This document shows positions 91 through 10,876 of a stretch of 53,710 nucleotides of DNA, one piece after another; position 1 is the stretch's first letter, and each line of letters begins with the position of its first letter. This DNA is from Archangiaceae bacterium. GTDB taxonomy: Bacteria > Myxococcota > Myxococcia > Myxococcales > Myxococcaceae. Under the pieces are notes generated by a model. It was not told the DNA's origin. It saw only the letters and a list, made by a program, of their open reading frames with translations, and did not search any database. The stretch spans positions 1-53,710 of the forward strand of contig JAACJQ010000242.1 in the NCBI GenBank assembly GCA_016879935.1. The letters run 5' to 3'. The position numbers were made by a program, and so were the translations under genes.

Positions 91-624
91 TCACACCCAG
101 CTGACGACGAGCTCTCCATTGATGCCGTCGAGGTTGTTGGCGCTCACCTTCGGCGTCACCTTCAACCGCTCGAAGCAGACCTCGACGACTCCGGCGACCA
201 GATGGGCCGCGCCAAGGTGCGGGCCGTTCAACGTCAGGTGCGCCTCTTTCGGCGAGCGCCACGTCACCTTCGCCTCGAGCTCCTTCACGCCCAGGCGCAT
301 GAAGCGCGGCGAGCGGTCGACGAGCGTCTTGGGTGAAAGAAACGGGAACGCCACGGCCACCAGCCGGCCCGCGATCGTCTCGAGGAAGCCGGTGATGAAG
401 TCGCGGCCGATGAGCCTCCACGCGGCGAAGCGCTCGACCCCGGGGTGCCGGTGCTTCGCGGTCACGTCGAGACAGTCGACCCACACCTGCATCGGGTACT
501 CGGGCTGAATGCGCTCGACGTCGAAGCCCACGGCCTTCAGGTCGTCGCGGAACGCGCCCGTCGGTCGCAACACCTTGCCGAAGAGCCCCTCGAACATCGA
601 CCCCTGCGCCGTGAACGTGGCCAT
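91..624 (-). CDS. TIGR02265/DUF2378 family protein
   Basis: A protein of about 177 residues that I recognise as the Myxococcales-restricted paralogous family TIGR02265 (DUF2378). The N-terminal motif GSMFEGLFGKVLRPTGAF and the core with AAWRLIGRDFITGF and FPFLSPKTLVDRSPRFMRLG are characteristic. The family has no established biochemical function; members are usually soluble and near 180-200 residues. The reading frame is open up to 699, but that extension would run into the upstream cytochrome gene and lacks family character, so I place the start at the ATG at 624. It follows the cytochrome gene on the same strand by 50 bases and may be co-transcribed. No signal peptide or membrane segment is visible. 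Confidence 0.8.
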   Translation of the reverse strand: MATFTAQGSMFEGLFGKVLRPTGAFRDDLKAVGFDVERIQPEYPMQVWVDCLDVTAKHRHPGVERFAAWRLIGRDFITGFLETIAGRLVAVAFPFLSPKTLVDRSPRFMRLGVKELEAKVTWRSPKEAHLTLNGPHLGAAHLVAGVVEVCFERLKVTPKVSANNLDGINGELVVSWV

Positions 625-674
625 CGGGGCCCACTCTACTTCCCACGCCTCACCGCGCGAGCATCGCAGCTCGT

Positions 675-1664
675 TCACCCCTCGTGCAGAAACGTCCACA
701 TGGCGACCAGCTCCTGCTCGGTCAGCTTGCCGCCGTACGCAGTGATGAAGCTCATCGGCACCTTCAGCGGCTGGCCATCTTTGCGTTTGCCCTCGACGAG
801 CGCGCGCTTGAAGTCCTCCATCGTCCAGCTCGCGAGCGCGCTGTGGCTGATGTCGGCGGCGGGCGGCCAGCTCGGGTCACCTCCGGCAATCGGTCCACCC
901 TTCAGTGACCGGCCGTGACAGCCCACGCAGACCTGCGCGAGGTGCTTGCCGAAGACCTTCGGGTCGGCGCTGCTCGGGGGAAAGCGCTCGTGCGCCTTCT
1001 GGTGGTCGGCAATCTCGGCCGTCACGTTGATGTCGCCCTTCGCGAGGAGCACGAGCCCGACCGGGCCGAACTCGGGCCGCGGCTGCTCGCGGTCGACGGG
1101 CGGGAGCGCGCGCACGTACGAGATGATGTCCGAGAGCTCCTGGTCGGACATCGAGAGGAAGTCGACCGACGGCATGATGGTGCCCCGGCCGTCGGGCTTC
1201 ACCCCGTGCCGCACGATGCGGTCCCAGTCGGCGACGGTGTACTTCGAGACGACGCCGCCTTTCCCGCTCGTGAGGTTCAGTCCGAAGAACTGACCGACGG
1301 GCGGAGCGTCGATCATCGTGCCGCCGCCGAGGTCGCGCCCGTGACAGTCGAAGCAGCCGTAGCGCGACTCGAGGAGGTGTTTCCCGCGCGCCACGGCCCG
1401 CTCCTGCGCGAGCGCGTTCACGTCGACGCCCGCGAGCACATCGACCACGCCCGCGTCGGGGTCGAGCCCTGCCGCCTTCTCGGCCCGCAGCGCGGCGAGC
1501 TCGTCGTCCGAGAGCGGGAACGGCACGGGAAAGTCGACCGCGTGCACTGGCCACGTCTTGTCGAGCCGACCCAGCGCCTTGCTCCGTGCGAAGACGAACG
1601 CGCCCGCCAGCACCAGACCGACGACGACCACGAGGGCCAACAGCCCGCGAACGGCTCTCATCAT
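675..1664 (-). CDS. Di-haem c-type cytochrome, membrane-anchored
   Basis: A 329-residue protein with an N-terminal hydrophobic anchor (residues 5-25) and two CxxCH haem-c sites: C104/C107/H108 and C246/C249/H250. Each is followed by a Met-containing stretch (for example IMPSVDFL near 163-170) suitable as sixth haem ligand, so it reads as a tandem of two cytochrome c class I domains facing the periplasm. Such proteins pass electrons in respiratory or dehydrogenase-linked chains. No partner oxidase or dehydrogenase lies beside it, so its donor and acceptor are unknown. The ATG at 1664 is preceded on the minus strand by a GGAGGA ribosome site six bases away, which fixes the start. Confidence 0.85.
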   Translation of the reverse strand: MMRAVRGLLALVVVVGLVLAGAFVFARSKALGRLDKTWPVHAVDFPVPFPLSDDELAALRAEKAAGLDPDAGVVDVLAGVDVNALAQERAVARGKHLLESRYGCFDCHGRDLGGGTMIDAPPVGQFFGLNLTSGKGGVVSKYTVADWDRIVRHGVKPDGRGTIMPSVDFLSMSDQELSDIISYVRALPPVDREQPRPEFGPVGLVLLAKGDINVTAEIADHQKAHERFPPSSADPKVFGKHLAQVCVGCHGRSLKGGPIAGGDPSWPPAADISHSALASWTMEDFKRALVEGKRKDGQPLKVPMSFITAYGGKLTEQELVAMWTFLHEG

Positions 1665-3852: not shown

Positions 3853-4389
3853 TTACAGCTCGCGGCTCATCAGCAGGCGCAGCTTGCCGCTCTTCTTCGA
3901 GACGACCGTCGCTACCGTGGTGAAGCCGTTCTTCCGGTAGAAGCTCACCGCCGTCGAGTTCGCAGGGTCGACGCGCAGCGCGAGCGTCTTGCGGTTCATG
4001 TCACGCGCCACCGACAGCCCCTTCTCGAGGAGCACGCCGCCGACGCCTTTGCTGCGCAGCTCGCCTTTGACGACGATGTTGCGCAGGTACGCGGCGCCAG
4101 GCACCGGGCCATCACGCTCGATGGTCACGTAGCCGAACAGGTTCCCGTTCACCTTGCCGACGTGAATGAAGGGTCTGAGCTTCGTGAGCGCCTCGAGGCT
4201 CTCTGCCGACGTCTCGCCGCGAACCTTCCACGGGTCTGACGTCGACCGGAGCCCTGCGAGGGCCTGCATGTCCTCGTCGGTGGGCGCCGCGAACTTCGCC
4301 TGCTTGATGTCTGCGAGCAGGGCAGTCGTGTCGATCATCGGCGGGGGCGTAGCTGCTGCGGGGGTCGTCTCCACCTGTTTGCTGGTCAT
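3853..4389 (-). CDS. GNAT family N-acetyltransferase
   Basis: A 178-residue cytoplasmic protein. The C-terminal 110 residues form a GNAT fold: beta strands around LFGYVTIERD and YLRNIVVKGELR, the acetyl-CoA pyrophosphate loop RSKGVGGVLLEKG, and the terminal motif NSTAVSFYRKNGF typical of ribosomal-protein-type acetyltransferases. The first 40 residues are Pro/Thr-rich and probably flexible. The substrate cannot be told from the sequence. The ATG at 4389 has a good AAGGAGAGG ribosome site just upstream, supporting the start. It is transcribed away from the MglA-like gene, with a divergent control region of about 200 bases between them. Confidence 0.8.
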   Translation of the reverse strand: MTSKQVETTPAAATPPPMIDTTALLADIKQAKFAAPTDEDMQALAGLRSTSDPWKVRGETSAESLEALTKLRPFIHVGKVNGNLFGYVTIERDGPVPGAAYLRNIVVKGELRSKGVGGVLLEKGLSVARDMNRKTLALRVDPANSTAVSFYRKNGFTTVATVVSKKSGKLRLLMSREL

Positions 4390-4637
4390 CGCCTCTCCTT
4401 CGTACGGAGTGAGGGTCTGGTTTGCTACCCCATCACCTCACTCTTCGGCTCGGCCGGGCTTGATCCTAACCACCTCGGTCAACGGACTGCACAGCACCAA
4501 ATTTCAAACCGTGCTGATTCGGTCGCACCTTTCCCTCCAGCAGCGCCATGGGGAGGGCGGTTTCGGAGGGCTGGTCTGATCAGCCTCGGCCGTCGAAATC
4601 AGTGACGAACCGGTGGTTCGACGGCACACTCTTCGAC

Positions 4638-5339
4638 GTGCAACTGAACCACGCCCAGCGCGAGTTGACGGTGAAGATCGTCTACTACGGCCCCGGGTTG
4701 TCAGGGAAAACGACCAACCTGCAGATGATTCACCAGCGCACGCAGCCCGACGTGCGCGGCCGGTTGCTGACAGTCGAGACCCACGACGACCGCACCTTGT
4801 TCTTCGACCTGCTGCCGGTGTTCTTCAACACGGCCTCGGGCTTCAAGGTGAAGGTGAAGCTCTTCACGGTGCCCGGGCAGGTGATTCACAACGCCACGCG
4901 CCGCATCGTGTTGCAGGGCGCCGACGCGGTGGCCTTCATCGCCGACAGCCGGCGCAGCGCGTCGCCCGAGAACAACAGCTACTGGAAGAACCTGAACGAG
5001 AACATGCGTGAGAACGGGCTCGACCCGGCCCACGTGCCCATCGTCATTCAGTTCAACAAGCGCGACCTGCCCGACACCCGCAGCGACGCCGAGATCGAAG
5101 AGGCGCGCAAGAAGGGCAAGGAGCCGGTTGTCGGCGCCATCGCGATTCGCGGCGTTGGCGTGCTCGAGACGTTGTTCGCCGTGCTGCAGTCGGCCTACCG
5201 CAGCCTCGACGCGCGCGCGGGCCTCTCGAAGAACATTCAGCTCGGCGAGCGTGAGTTCCTCACCCAGGTCTTCCAGAACATCGACACCAGCGGCACCGAG
5301 CTCGAGAAGGTGTTCCCGCCACGGGTGAAGGCGCCGTGA
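4638..5339 (+). CDS. MglA-like small GTPase
   Basis: A Ras-superfamily GTPase of about 233 residues in the MglA group, which in myxobacteria sets cell polarity and drives gliding. Walker A is GPGLSGKTT (about residues 18-26). The G3 region is TVPGQ rather than DxxG, as in MglA, and G4 is FNKRDLP. Strand KIVYYGPGL and FIADSRRS also fit MglA. Compared with MglA (about 195 residues) it carries a longer C-terminal tail (SKNIQLGEREFLTQVFQNI). I start at the GTG at 4638, where homology begins; the frame is open upstream and GTG 4602 is a possible alternative, neither with a strong ribosome site. Its stop overlaps the start of the next gene, so the GTPase and the sensor kinase are probably translated together. 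Confidence 0.82.
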   Translation: MQLNHAQRELTVKIVYYGPGLSGKTTNLQMIHQRTQPDVRGRLLTVETHDDRTLFFDLLPVFFNTASGFKVKVKLFTVPGQVIHNATRRIVLQGADAVAFIADSRRSASPENNSYWKNLNENMRENGLDPAHVPIVIQFNKRDLPDTRSDAEIEEARKKGKEPVVGAIAIRGVGVLETLFAVLQSAYRSLDARAGLSKNIQLGEREFLTQVFQNIDTSGTELEKVFPPRVKAP

Positions 5340-6814
5340 GACAAGGGGAGTCGGTTCTTCAGCGCCGCATCTCGCTCGTCGAGCTGCTCGATGGCGAGTC
5401 CTTCACCGAGGTCGTGAAGGGCTTCGTCGAACTCTACAAGGTCGGCATCAAGGTCTTCGACGACAAGGGCGGCAAGCTGGCCGACATCAAGGTCGGCAAC
5501 GGCGACTTCTGCGGCTACGTCTTCAGCTTTCCCGAAGGGCGTCGGCGCTGCACCTCGACGGTCGGCCGCGTGAAAGACGGCCCGGTCGCGCTGAGTCACG
5601 GCGCGCGGCTGCCGGTGCTCGAGTCGACCGACGCTCCGAAGGCGAAGGGTGTCGTCACGGTGCCGTGCTTCACGGGGCTCCGGTACATCATCCTCCCCAT
5701 CCTCTGGGAGGGCGACACGCTCGGCCGCGTGGTGTTCGGCCCGTTCTTCCCCGAAGACCTCGGTGACTTTCCGCCGCCGTCGCTCACCGAAGTCTCGGAG
5801 GGCTTCGACGCTGCCAACGCGCGCAAGTTCGTCGAGAAGGTGCGCCGCGCTCCCGAGAGCACCATCGCGCGCGTGCTGCTGCACTTCGCCCAGCTGCTGC
5901 AGACGTTGCTGTTCGCCGGGCAGAAGATGTTCCTCACCTCGCAGCTGCACATCGAGGCGACGCTCGAGCAGAACCGAGAGCTCGAAGAGCGCAACAAGAA
6001 GCTCGAGGAGATGAACCAGAAGCTGAAGGACCTCGACCGTCTCAAGAGCGCCTTCCTCGCCACCGTCAGTCACGAGCTGCGCACGCCGCTGACCAGCATC
6101 ATCGGGTACTCCGAGATGCTCGCCGAAGGCCTCGCCGGCCCGCTCAACGGAGAGCAGGTCGACTACGTGCGCACCATCATGGACAAGGGCGAGACCCTGC
6201 TGAAGTTGATCAGCAGCATTCTCGACATCTCGCAGATCGAAGCGGGCAAGGTGCGGCTGACCTTCGAGCCGATGGATCCGTTCGAGCTCGTGAACTCGTC
6301 GGTGTCGTCGCTCAAGCCGCAGTCGCAGAAGAAGGGCGTCACGCTCGAGGCGAAGCTGCCGGGCCGTCACTTTCAGTCGACGGGCGACCGCGACCGCCTG
6401 CGGCAGGTCATCACCAACCTGCTCACCAACGCGGTGAAGTTCACGCCCAAGGGCGGCACCGTGCGCGTGCTGCTCACTGAGCTCACGCATCAGCCCGACA
6501 TCAACGCGCAGGGTTTTCGAATCATCGTCGAAGACTCGGGCGTCGGCATTCCGGCTGATCAGTTCGACAAGATCTTCCAGAGCTTCTACCAGGTCGACTC
6601 GTCGTCCACGCGCGAGTACGGCGGCGCGGGCATCGGCCTCGCCATCGTGAAGAGCTTCGTCGAAGGCCACGGCGGCGTCGTGCGCGTCGCGAGCGAGATG
6701 AACCACGGCAGCCGCTTCACGGTGATTCTGCCCGCGATTCCCAGCGCGCAGACGTCGGTGAGCATCACGCCGCCCGTCACCGCGCTGCAGGCTCCGGCCG
6801 ACGACCGGTTCTGA
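5336..6814 (+). CDS. PocR-domain sensor histidine kinase
   Basis: A 492-residue protein without membrane segments. Residues 10-190 resemble the PocR ligand-binding domain, with conserved Cys residues in GDFCGYVFSFPEGRRRC and VVTVPCFTGL. A coiled coil at about 205-235 leads to a HisKA domain (FLATVSHELRTPLTSIIGYS, phospho-acceptor His246) and a HATPase domain (N box TNLLTNAVKFTPKGG, G boxes DSGVGIP and GGAGIGLAIV). It should sense a cytosolic small molecule or redox state and phosphorylate a response regulator not encoded nearby. The GTG at 5336 overlaps the GTPase stop (GTGA), implying translational coupling with the MglA-like protein. That suggests the pair acts in one pathway linking signal to polarity or motility, which is inference. 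Confidence 0.88.
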   Translation: MRQGESVLQRRISLVELLDGESFTEVVKGFVELYKVGIKVFDDKGGKLADIKVGNGDFCGYVFSFPEGRRRCTSTVGRVKDGPVALSHGARLPVLESTDAPKAKGVVTVPCFTGLRYIILPILWEGDTLGRVVFGPFFPEDLGDFPPPSLTEVSEGFDAANARKFVEKVRRAPESTIARVLLHFAQLLQTLLFAGQKMFLTSQLHIEATLEQNRELEERNKKLEEMNQKLKDLDRLKSAFLATVSHELRTPLTSIIGYSEMLAEGLAGPLNGEQVDYVRTIMDKGETLLKLISSILDISQIEAGKVRLTFEPMDPFELVNSSVSSLKPQSQKKGVTLEAKLPGRHFQSTGDRDRLRQVITNLLTNAVKFTPKGGTVRVLLTELTHQPDINAQGFRIIVEDSGVGIPADQFDKIFQSFYQVDSSSTREYGGAGIGLAIVKSFVEGHGGVVRVASEMNHGSRFTVILPAIPSAQTSVSITPPVTALQAPADDRF

Positions 6815-6818
6815 AAGC

Positions 6819-7652
6819 TCACGGCGCCTTTCGCAGCTGTTCCCAGTACGCGCTCGCGCCGTTCTTGAACCAGACGACGCCGGGCGCGACGGGCCAGAAC
6901 GTGTAGACGAACTGCGACGGCTGGATTTTCTCACCCTTCCACCCGGCGCCGGTCGACTCGACGTTCCACACGCCCGTCACCACCACCTGCTGGCGCGCGT
7001 TCACCGTCACCTGGTCGACCTTCGTGGTCCACGTGTGGTCGGGGTGCTTCGCGTCCGTCGGCAGGTGTTTCGTCGTCACCACGAGCGAGTCACCGGTGAA
7101 CGTGACGAAGTCTTGAAAGCCCTTTCCTTCGGAGTGCTCGACCCACGCGCCGCGCAGCAGGGCCGACGCCTCTGGCGCTGAGAGCGAGACGAACATTCCG
7201 TCGAACGTGCCGGCGGGAATCGCGACCTTCTTCGCGTCGAGGTGCTGCTTCAGCGACACCATGATGTCGTGGAAGTGATGGTCTTCGACCTCGTGCATGC
7301 CGGGCGCCGAGAGCGCGTTCCGGTCGAAGCCGATGCGCTCGATGATGACCTCGATGGCGATGTGACGCAGGCACGCGTTGTCGTGCTTTGCCCAGGGCAC
7401 GAGGCTGATCAGGTCACCGTCGTCGCGCAGGGGCACCTTCGCGGCGGTGGCGGCGAGCAGGGTGTACGTCGCTCCGGGCTTGCCGTCGCACTCGACGAGG
7501 CTGAGGCCGTTCTGCTCCGACAGCGTCGCGGCCTCGGGCAGCTTCACAGCCCAGCTTCGGAAGAGCGTGTCGATGGCGTTCATGGCGGGCTTCGACTTCG
7601 GCTGCGCGACGGCAGGGAGCGCGAGGAGCAGCACGAGGGCGCGAAGGAGCAC
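6819..7652 (-). CDS. Exported protein of unknown function
   Basis: A 277-residue protein with a clear signal peptide (LLRALVLLLALPAVAQ). I do not recognise the family. The mature part is mixed alpha/beta; His-rich stretches such as EVEDHHFHD and many Trp/Tyr residues near the C-terminus (VYTFWPVAPGVVWFK) stand out, and the C-terminal half reads like a SnoaL/cystatin-type beta sheet with FTGDSLVVTTKH. It is convergent with the PocR kinase gene, only four bases apart. The start is the GTG at 7652, with no convincing ribosome site. Likely periplasmic. Confidence 0.65.
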   Translation of the reverse strand: MLLRALVLLLALPAVAQPKSKPAMNAIDTLFRSWAVKLPEAATLSEQNGLSLVECDGKPGATYTLLAATAAKVPLRDDGDLISLVPWAKHDNACLRHIAIEVIIERIGFDRNALSAPGMHEVEDHHFHDIMVSLKQHLDAKKVAIPAGTFDGMFVSLSAPEASALLRGAWVEHSEGKGFQDFVTFTGDSLVVTTKHLPTDAKHPDHTWTTKVDQVTVNARQQVVVTGVWNVESTGAGWKGEKIQPSQFVYTFWPVAPGVVWFKNGASAYWEQLRKAP

Positions 7653-8626: not shown

Positions 8627-8659
8627 CCGTCTCGCCATCAGGTGCCCACTCTGGGCACG

Positions 8660-8880
8660 TGAGCTGCGGCAGCGGTCAGGCCTCGGCAAAAGGGAAGCCG
8701 GTGAAAATCCGGCGCGGTCGCGCCACTGTGACCGGGAACGCCCCACATCGATGATGGGGCACGCGTCGTCTCGAAGTCGGAGCGCAATACGGCTCCACGT
8801 CACTCCGCGAAGCTGCGGGGGAAGATGGGAGACGCACACGTCAGCATCCCGGCGAGCCAGGAGACCTGCCTGATGGTGCG
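8660..8880 (+). promoter_or_regulatory. Cobalamin (B12) riboswitch
   Basis: The leader of the BtuB-like gene contains the conserved cobalamin-aptamer core. An AAAGGGAAGCCGGTGAAAAT block (8688 onward) is followed by the CCGGCGCGG and CGCCACTGTGACCGGGAA segments. A variable arm follows, and then the diagnostic B12 box AGCCAGGAGACCTGCC at 8855-8870. Adenosylcobalamin-type ligands bind this RNA and shut off the downstream gene. The outer limits are approximate because the P1 helix was not folded. Confidence 0.93.
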
Positions 8881-8905
8881 GTGACTTCGGTCATCGCAGA
8901 GCCTT

Positions 8906-8935: not shown

Positions 8936-10876
8936 ATGCGGCTGGTCGTCATCGCCAGTGTGGCTCTCCTCGCGCTCCCGGCGCTGGGTGAAGACGCGGG
9001 CGTCATCGAGCTGCCGCCCGTCGTCGTTCCGCTCCCGCCTGCGGCCGACGTTCCGAACGCGTCGTCGCCCACGCAGCGAGACCCGTCGGCCGCCACCACC
9101 GTCATCGAGACGAAGTCGCGCGTGGCCGAAGCCAAAGACGCCTCCGAGCTGGTGGCCGCGTCTCCCGGCGCCGTCATTCAGGACCAGGGCGGAGCCGGGC
9201 AGCGCAAGACGTTGTCGCTGCGTGGCGCCTCGCCGAACTCGGTGCTCGTGCTGCTCGATGGCGTGCCGATGAACGCGCCAGGCAACGCCGTCGACCTGTC
9301 ACGGTTGCCCGTCGCGATGCTCGAGCGCGTCGAGGTGATGCGCGGCTCCGGGAGCCGGTATGGGCCGGGCGCGATGGGCGGCGTGGTGAATCTCGTGACG
9401 AAGGCGCCTGATGGAACGCGCGCGTTCGCCGAGGTCTCGCAAGGCAGCTTCTGGACGACGACGGCCTCGCTCGGTGGCTCGACGCAGGTGCTCGGTGGTG
9501 AAGGGCTCGCAGTGCTGCACGGGCTTCGCAGCGACGGTGACTTCTCGTATCGCTGGGACGACAAGCCGGCCCTCGAAGGTAACGCGTGGCCGACGGCGGT
9601 GCGCTCGAACAACCGCGCGCTGCTGGGTGGTGGGCTGCTCCGCTGGCGGCGCATGGTGGGCAGCTCGCGCGTCGACGTGCTGGGTGAAGGCCTGACGGAG
9701 GCGCGTGGGCTCGTAGGCCCCGTTCAGAACCCGACGGCCGATGCCTCGCAGGTGACGGGCCGTGGAACGCTCTCGGCGCGCGTCACCACGACGTTCGAGA
9801 ACGGCGGCGAGCTGCAGGTGCTCGGCTACGGACGAATCGATTCCACCGCGCTCAAGGGCAGCGCCTTCGGTGGAGACACCGCGCAGCTCGAGACGTCAGC
9901 CGGCGCCGAGGCCGTGTATTCGGTGCGCGCGTTCTCGCGGCATCGCTTCACGGGCCTGCTCTCGGGCGGTGGTGATTTTCTTCGCGAGCCGACGAACCGG
10001 AACCCTGCGTGGGGCCGCGTGAGCGCGATGGTGGGTGACGAGGTCTCGCTCTTCGACGGCCGGTTGATGCTCGATGGCACCGCGCGGCTCGACGTGGCAG
10101 GGCCGTTCGTCGTGGTGTCTCCGAAGGCGAGCGCGACGCTCTTTCTCCCCGCGGGCTTCGAGCTGCGCGCGACGGGCGGGCAGGCGGCGCGACCGCCGGG
10201 CTTTCAGGAGCTGTACGTGATGCAGGGCACGCTGCTCCCCAACCCCGACTGGAAGGCCGAGCGTGGGCTGCAGGCCGACGTGAGCGCGGCGTGGCGGCAC
10301 GAGAAGGCGACCGCGCAGGTGACGGGCTTCTACGGGCTCTACGAGAACCTCATCGCCTACGAGTACTACCCGCCGGTGTTGGCCAAGCCGTACAACTTCG
10401 CGGCGGCGCAGTCGGCAGGCGTCGAGGTCGAAGGGGCGTTCGCTCCGGCGGCGTGGCTCGAGGCGCAGGCGAGCTACACGTTCATGACGACGCAGAACCT
10501 GAAAGACGACCCGCGCTACTACCTGAAGTCGTTGCCGTACCGGCCGAGGCACCGCGTGACGGGCCGGCTCGTGGGCGGCGTCGAGTGGCTCAAGGCGCGC
10601 GCCGAGGTGCTGGTGCAATCGGAGCAGTTCACGAACCGTACGGAGTCCGTTTCGTTGCCGGCGCGGGCGTTCGTGAATGTGGGCATCGCCTCGTCGCCGT
10701 GGAAGAACCCGCGCGTGACGGTGGCCTTCGACGTGAAGAACGTGCTCGACGTACAGAGTCAGGACCTCGACGGCTATCCCCTGCCGCCGCGCGCCGCGTT
10801 CTTGTCGGTGGCCATCGCGTGGGACGCCGGGCGCAACGAACCGTCGGCCGTGGCCAGTGCAGCAGTGAAGGAGTGA
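8936..10876 (+). CDS. btuB: TonB-dependent cobalamin receptor, BtuB-like
   Basis: A 646-residue outer-membrane receptor: signal peptide (MRLVVIASVALLALPALG), then a plug domain with typical motifs (LSLRGASPNSVLVLLDGVPM, VERVEVMRGSGSRYGPGAMGGVVNLVT), then a 22-strand-type barrel with GFQELYVMQGTLLPNPDWKAE. It imports a corrinoid using TonB energy. The B12 assignment comes from the cobalamin riboswitch in its leader; length and motifs fit BtuB. The N-terminus lacks an obvious TonB-box consensus, although VIELPPVVV after the signal peptide could serve. The next gene begins five bases after the stop and shares the leader, so both are probably B12-repressed. Confidence 0.9.
   Translation: MRLVVIASVALLALPALGEDAGVIELPPVVVPLPPAADVPNASSPTQRDPSAATTVIETKSRVAEAKDASELVAASPGAVIQDQGGAGQRKTLSLRGASPNSVLVLLDGVPMNAPGNAVDLSRLPVAMLERVEVMRGSGSRYGPGAMGGVVNLVTKAPDGTRAFAEVSQGSFWTTTASLGGSTQVLGGEGLAVLHGLRSDGDFSYRWDDKPALEGNAWPTAVRSNNRALLGGGLLRWRRMVGSSRVDVLGEGLTEARGLVGPVQNPTADASQVTGRGTLSARVTTTFENGGELQVLGYGRIDSTALKGSAFGGDTAQLETSAGAEAVYSVRAFSRHRFTGLLSGGGDFLREPTNRNPAWGRVSAMVGDEVSLFDGRLMLDGTARLDVAGPFVVVSPKASATLFLPAGFELRATGGQAARPPGFQELYVMQGTLLPNPDWKAERGLQADVSAAWRHEKATAQVTGFYGLYENLIAYEYYPPVLAKPYNFAAAQSAGVEVEGAFAPAAWLEAQASYTFMTTQNLKDDPRYYLKSLPYRPRHRVTGRLVGGVEWLKARAEVLVQSEQFTNRTESVSLPARAFVNVGIASSPWKNPRVTVAFDVKNVLDVQSQDLDGYPLPPRAAFLSVAIAWDAGRNEPSAVASAAVKE

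Follow-up and report, generated by a model that had tools for sequence, protein, structure and literature searches.

A SofG-clade GTPase gene and an overlapping PocR-domain histidine kinase gene as a conserved pair in Myxococcota

Two overlapping genes of a myxobacterial contig, one for a small Ras-like GTPase and one for a sensor histidine kinase, raise the question of whether their products act together and, if so, in which signalling route. The DNA examined is contig JAACJQ010000242.1 of assembly GCA_016879935.1 from an Archangiaceae bacterium, and its whole stretch of 53,710 nt is referred to here as the window. The original prediction described an MglA-like GTPase gene and a PocR-domain histidine kinase gene that share the letters GTGA, an arrangement that the coordinates and Pfam matches of both products confirm. 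The pair and its surroundings comprise the following features.

91 to 699, minus strand: gene for a DUF2378 protein (E 1.6e-32)
3853 to 4389, minus strand: gene for a divergent GNAT acetyltransferase, flanking the GTPase gene and found beside the pair within the family
4638 to 5339, plus strand: gene for a SofG-clade small Ras-like GTPase (MglA family) of 233 aa, with a GTG start at 4638 and a TGA stop at 5337 to 5339
5336 to 5339, plus strand: GTGA overlap of the GTPase stop and the kinase start
5336 to 6814, plus strand: gene for a sensor histidine kinase of 492 aa, with a GTG start at 5336, composed of PocR, a long helix, HisKA and HATPase_c
5381 to 5914, plus strand: PocR domain, kinase residues 16-193, with Cys59, Cys72 and Cys111; predicted GTPase-docking domain
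5855 to 6037, plus strand: long signalling-type helix, kinase residues 174-234, linking PocR to HisKA, with a conserved LHxE
6044 to 6247, plus strand: HisKA domain, kinase residues 237-304, with the phospho-acceptor His246
6383 to 6736, plus strand: HATPase_c domain, kinase residues 350-467, with the N box Asn361, Asp400 and GxG motifs
6819 to 7652, strand opposite to the pair: gene for a 277-aa protein flanking the kinase gene, without a Pfam match

The GTPase matches the Arf/small GTPase family in Pfam (E 2.9e-5) and solved MglA structures at an E of about 3e-49. Alternative starts lie upstream at 4548 (ATG) and 4602 (GTG); the conserved protein begins at 4638. A simple consensus scan returned no promoter. 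The kinase contains PocR (PF10114; E 1.5e-17, 64.2 bits against a curated cut-off of 23.9) together with HisKA and HATPase_c, while no further Pfam domain appeared at E 0.001 and no membrane domain was found. The GNAT gene is probably a neighbour of the pair and not a component of it. DUF2378 is a family known mainly from myxobacteria.

The two genes are inherited together across most of the Myxococcota genomes compared, in sets that favour some genera and whose related members are not independent. In a close set of 40 genomes (the window's own and 39 relatives), 34 contain the GTPase and exactly these 34 also contain the PocR N-terminus, and the other six lack both genes. Profile searches of 179 Myxococcota genomes (E <= 1e-72 for the GTPase, E <= 1e-15 for the PocR part) recovered the GTPase in 158 and the PocR part in 154, so divided that 153 genomes carry both, five the GTPase alone, one the PocR part alone and 20 neither; names of unlisted genomes in this comparison were obtained by elimination. 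Each of the five GTPase-alone genomes (G019, G020, G052, G109, G111) has a divergent kinase directly downstream, with PocR reduced in four of them and giving no Pfam match in G052, and in the PocR-alone genome (G057) the PocR match spans a stop. Gene positions were compared in 146 of the 153 genomes (G062, G110, G114, G151, G155, G156 and G157 left out), and the genes are adjacent and on the same strand in 145; in the sole exception, G122, the GTPase lies at the end of one contig and PocR at the beginning of a second. A GTDB scan with the PocR profile placed a GTPase upstream of PocR in 79 of the best 80 of 98 loci, a count that includes three loci with a short or broken GTPase frame (L113, L135, L153), and the one remaining locus (L105) begins at a contig edge. 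One genome (G061) carries two GTPase-kinase pairs. The search for conserved GTPase-PocR-kinase pairs across Myxococcota that had been proposed was successful, and an unusual pairing of GTPase and kinase is upheld, as it extends through most of the phylum set. A local accident, or a pairing unique to one genome, is rejected by the same co-occurrence and adjacency counts.

Several observations on individual loci accompany these counts. No natural fusion of the GTPase and the kinase was seen, and the long open frames in G038, G027 and G033 are separate genes. The kinase of a small-genome relative (G149; L053:3-1460) contains a long glutamate/asparagine-rich repeat in or just after PocR. Two loci with clear Myxococcota pair or kinase sequences bear labels from other phyla (L112, Comamonas sp. 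KCTC 72670; L105, an uncultured Kouleothrix MAG), which probably reflects contamination or mislabelling.

The overlap between the two genes is also conserved. With the kinase start set by a rule that favours overlap, namely the most upstream in-frame start, the kinase start and the GTPase stop share 4 bases in 28 of 34 genomes (the window's own and 33 relatives; seven loci repeating twice-fetched genomes left out), and the remaining six show a 1-base overlap (three) or gaps of 2-4 bases (three). The same 4-base overlap is found in 67 of 79 GTDB loci, as ATGA in 48 and GTGA in 19, and in 19 of 30 members of a set dominated by more distant genomes. In 20 of the 28 genomes and 46 of the 67 GTDB loci, no start other than the overlapping one precedes the PocR match. 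Since A accounts for 2.9% of the third positions of these GTPase genes, the 48 ATGA cases among 67 indicate that the overlap exceeds chance; before the kinase stop, A occurs in 1 of 78. The leader between the kinase start and PocR differs in length among relatives, so that the leader changes without loss of the overlap. Four-base overlaps are a common operon arrangement, and their retention here supports the translational coupling of GTPase and kinase that had been proposed.

With no SofG-labelled sequence in the comparison, the GTPase is best identified as SofG by its length, by elimination, by a clade with 100% support and by gene order. The tree separates 30 orthologs from 42 MglA-family paralogs by a branch of length 1.27 with 100/100 support, and M. 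xanthus (L107) falls inside the ortholog clade. The M. xanthus ortholog has 239 aa, and SofG is presumably MXAN_6703. SofG has been reported as a 239-aa orphan without a coupled MglB, and as the protein that positions PilB and PilT of the type IV pili in M. xanthus (PMC4316618, available text), where it acts with the bactofilin BacP (PMC5703909, available text). At E 1e-15, three MglA-family proteins were found in each of three genomes of the genus Myxococcus, an assignment made because genes of G143 are near-identical to those of M. xanthus; the trio consists of MglA, this GTPase and one longer paralog (373 aa in G128). In L003 and L167, the third MglA-family protein, of 346 and 373 aa, carries a long proline-rich segment as well as an additional C-terminal portion. 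A simple duplicate of MglA is rejected by the tree and by the search scores, which are 7.6e-86 or better for orthologs and no better than 4.7e-66 for paralogs; the wider search of 179 genomes includes weaker best matches in G062 (4.7e-77) and G151 (2.0e-80). The label "MglA-like" therefore holds for the family and is sharpened by the tree branch to the SofG clade.

Gene order points in the same direction. In M. xanthus (L107), genes for GNAT, GTPase, kinase, NYN, a 276-aa protein and a di-haem oxidoreductase (DHOR) follow one another, and G143 continues this order with a 492-aa open frame, ThiL and MCP. A table on M. xanthus fruiting-body development, in the part available, names 6704 as an acetyl transferase, 6699 as the FbdA thiol oxidoreductase and 6696 as DifA (PMC2129111). 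The window's GNAT gene corresponds in position to MXAN_6704 of this table, and counting genes against it makes the GTPase 6703 and the kinase 6702. At the level of residues, the Group 1 MglA motifs (P-loop, arginine by the G2 threonine, TVPGQ in G3, NKxD in G4) are invariant in 33 of 33 aligned orthologs, and the window GTPase has the P-loop, the G2 arginine, TVPGQ and NKRD. In a 143-row alignment (12 loci repeating fetched genomes left out), Arg52, TVPGQ and NKxD are kept in nearly all rows, the rest being mostly gaps. Set against 23 MglA rows, Lys72, Lys74 and His84, which lies just after the catalytic Gln, are SofG-specific, and the clade has a C-terminal extension with Phe207. That the two proteins are made together in most of the genomes compared makes the kinase a likely missing partner of SofG. 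No description of a kinase partner was met in the available parts of the literature searched, which did not cover the original SofG paper, and PMC12288465, PMC9481161 and PMC11580455 make no mention of SofG.

The original prediction had proposed a check for a missing MglB-type GAP partner. The orphan status of the GTPase is supported in the window's own genome, where no MglB-type (Robl_LC7, roadblock) gene occurs within four genes of the pair or on its contig; the genome's two roadblock genes are found on contig C145, next to the true mglA, and on contig C193. As far as the available texts go, published statements on MglB as a GAP for SofG conflict: MglB is stated to be a GAP for SofG (PMC11016934), to bind SofG (PMC7949163), and not to aid SofG hydrolysis, with no cognate GAP identified (PMC4316618).

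Fold predictions suggest where SofG could be bound instead. The model of the window's PocR domain with its helix (pLDDT 93.4, pTM 0.84) finds M. xanthus MglB (6hjm) as its first structural match, with Z 9.1, rmsd 3.6 and 110 aligned residues, on a scale where the comparison tool's own note gives a best Z of 7-8 as typical of unrelated models. Behind it, within 1 Z, structures of Ragulator, Rag and MglB are interspersed with GAF domains (CodY, PobR, IclR). Foldseek ranked the CodY GAF domain first (E 1.9e-4), with no MglB among the 50 matches listed, and a PDB sequence search for PocR gave nothing with a single query and two weak unrelated matches with a profile (E 0.66, 0.71). By these models, the PocR fold would resemble MglB about as well as it resembles GAF domains, and the GTPase fold matches MglA at Z 26. 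When the GTPase and PocR of L039 were read through the stop as one artificial chain, a single prediction with no control and no coordinates reached pLDDT 89 and pTM 0.81, with residues 217-232 between the domains disordered. Only 7 of the 107 rows used were joined pairs, and there was no inter-domain error map; an idealised calculation puts two domains without a fixed relative orientation at a pTM of about 0.50-0.56, and 0.81 corresponds to an inter-domain error of about 4 angstrom. The joint model suggests that SofG may dock on the PocR domain of the kinase.

The kinase itself has the residues of an active enzyme, as the phospho-acceptor His, the N box Asn and the ATP-binding residues are conserved through the set. 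His246 and Asp400 are present in 135 of 135 distinct kinases and Asn361 in 131. The three PocR cysteines (Cys59, Cys72, Cys111) are all kept in 131 of the 135 as well, the exceptions being L036, L067, L079 and L160, and they persist where the middle part of PocR is shortened (L027, L042, L164). Because PocR is reduced in lineages that keep the pair, the ligand pocket looks less essential than the link between GTPase and kinase.

The genes downstream suggest where a phosphate might be delivered. In many relatives, genes for ThiL, MCP, CheW, CheY and CheA follow the kinase. Of the 144 genomes for which both positions are available, 84 have a close CheY homolog downstream, co-oriented and at most 45 kb away, and in 64 the distance is no more than 10 kb; in many of the remaining genomes the two genes are on different contigs. 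Linkage is found in 76 of the 96 genomes with a CheY identity of at least 81%. Judged by gene numbers, the linked cluster would be the dif cluster in Myxococcus. The window has no dif-type CheY, CheA, CheW, MCP or ThiL gene in a search at E 1e-12, and in its genus related CheW-CheY-CheA genes stand elsewhere, unlinked to the pair (G000, G006). A CheY gene comes directly after the kinase in two genomes (G030, G044), starting 46-52 bases downstream, and candidate cognate receivers of those lineages are the following.

L040, 7528 to 7908: single-domain CheY gene
L172, 10784 to 11167: single-domain CheY gene

The statement that the pair has no response regulator holds for the two flanking genes of the window and is qualified by the downstream CheY genes of many relatives. 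Dif acts downstream of pili and PilB in the control of exopolysaccharide, and many questions remain on its input from pili (PMC5544727, available text). Among 48 genomes chosen of the 179, two tiny genomes without the pair (G162, G163) being left out, a PilB-type ATPase scored above the cut-off in 29 of the 30 that have the pair and in 9 of the 18 that lack it (p 0.0002, ignoring relatedness and genome size). From these proportions, the pair goes with PilB, and not the reverse.

These elements can be combined into a model, to which we give about an even chance, in which the pair forms one cognate module, with docking of SofG on the kinase coupling nucleotide state to kinase activity and phosphate passing to a receiver elsewhere. 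Such a module is favoured because of near-strict co-inheritance, adjacency, the conserved overlap and the joint fold. SofG, as part of the type IV pilus/polarity system, and the sensor kinase would be made from the same message by coupled translation, and SofG is predicted to dock on PocR in the place that MglB has for MglA. Its nucleotide state and the kinase activity would be coupled through this contact, modulation of the kinase by SofG-GTP being the likeliest form. The first candidate for the receiver would be a Dif-type CheY, so that pilus state might be tied to exopolysaccharide control. Weighing against the model are the tie of the MglB match with GAF domains, the uncontrolled joint prediction, the conflicting statements on MglB and SofG, the unlinked CheW-CheY-CheA genes of the window's genus and the PilB-type ATPases of 9 of 18 genomes that lack the pair. 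SofG acting on the kinase is slightly preferred, since PocR is reduced in lineages that keep the pair. A more specific proposal, which we hold only tentatively, sees PocR as the cognate domain on which SofG docks and which regulates this GTPase, a roadblock-like stand-in for MglB within a histidine kinase, with a ligand pocket that is secondary and lost in some lineages. If this is true, the kinase would directly convert signals in both directions between a Ras-type switch and phosphotransfer.

The signal could also run in the opposite direction, a possible but rather doubtful arrangement in which the three PocR cysteines would serve to detect a ligand, a metal or the redox state and SofG would be the output, its nucleotide state or activity being set by the kinase. 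Retention of the Cys triad, even where the PocR middle is shortened, agrees with such sensing, as do the actinobacterial conservons, which lack a response regulator and whose GTPase is the proposed output (PMC4316618, PMC13343842, available texts). Sensing looks more dispensable than pairing, however, given the reduced PocR of G019, G020, G109 and G111 and its missing Pfam match in G052, and no roadblock gene lies beside the pair in the window's own genome. Alternatively, SofG and the kinase may only be co-expressed, serving the same process without contact. This is unlikely, although 4-base overlaps are general in operons and SofG is reported with BacP and on PilB/PilT (PMC5703909, PMC4316618, available texts), as the near-strict co-inheritance over 179 genomes, the adjacency that persists though downstream neighbours differ, the two pairs of G061 and the joint fold (pTM 0.81, uncontrolled) all argue for more than a shared message.

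A link to B12 or propanediol had been raised as well, with the caveat that it may be chance; in this reading, the kinase would sense a ligand of this type within the regulon of a riboswitch-controlled gene nearby. The domain name PocR and the cobalamin riboswitch speak for it; the window features concerned are the following.

8628 to 8887: cobalamin riboswitch (72.1 bits), upstream of the TonB-dependent receptor gene
8936 to 10876: TonB-dependent receptor gene, whose best NCBIfam match is a B12 receptor model, below cut-off

Among 96 loci of more than 5.5 kb, six of them from the same genus, the receptor found no counterpart at E 1e-10, and a looser search with the window as positive control gave one weak match, 27% identical (L170). 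In many relatives, the pair is instead linked to chemosensory genes. With that one weak exception, the receptor neighbourhood is not conserved, and the B12/propanediol link is rejected; it was not borne out in the loci compared. The B12 element itself is real, its link to the pair looks like chance, and a B12-type sensor in this regulon is highly improbable.

The cognate module of SofG and kinase, to return to the preferred reading, would have several consequences. SofG has so far been an orphan, and a partner encoded in one overlapping operon across most of the phylum set makes its regulation testable in M. xanthus. The pair would offer an uncomplicated example of a histidine kinase connected to a Ras-like GTPase with none of the additional conservon proteins, and gene order ties it to the Dif exopolysaccharide pathway.

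Compared with known systems, the window GTPase is closest to M. xanthus SofG, with which it shares the clade, the length class and the intrinsic-arginine Group 1 motifs; the gene order of M. xanthus L107 agrees with MXAN_6704 to 6699 as far as the available part of PMC2129111 names these genes (6704, 6699), whereas dif-type genes are unlinked to the pair in the window's genus. The MglA/MglB module shares the GTPase fold, the G2 arginine and TVPGQ, and its roadblock protein MglB is resembled by the PocR model at a Z tied with GAF domains. The SofG clade differs from MglA in His84 (Tyr in MglA) and in extending beyond the MglA C-terminus, the window pair has no adjacent MglB, and PocR belongs to a different sequence family from Robl_LC7. 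Conservons likewise place a histidine kinase gene beside an MglA-family GTPase gene with no response regulator gene, their sensor-kinase-like CvnA and MglA-like CvnD being described in the available texts of PMC4316618 and PMC13343842. The pair, in contrast, consists of two genes only, with no roadblock CvnB adjacent; its kinase carries PocR and has no membrane domain that was found, and its GTPase belongs to Group 1 (TVPGQ, arginine), not to Group 2 with GTPGQ. The Dif system of M. xanthus is matched, in many genomes, by MCP-CheW-CheY-CheA genes that come after the pair, but the pair's kinase is of the HisKA type, not CheA, and is absent among the Dif proteins named in the available part of PMC5544727 (DifA, C, D, E, G). 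PocR-domain sensor kinases with a signalling helix (PMC1592074, available text) have the same architecture of PocR, long helix and kinase, and what distinguishes the present kinase is its regular pairing with a Ras-like GTPase gene.
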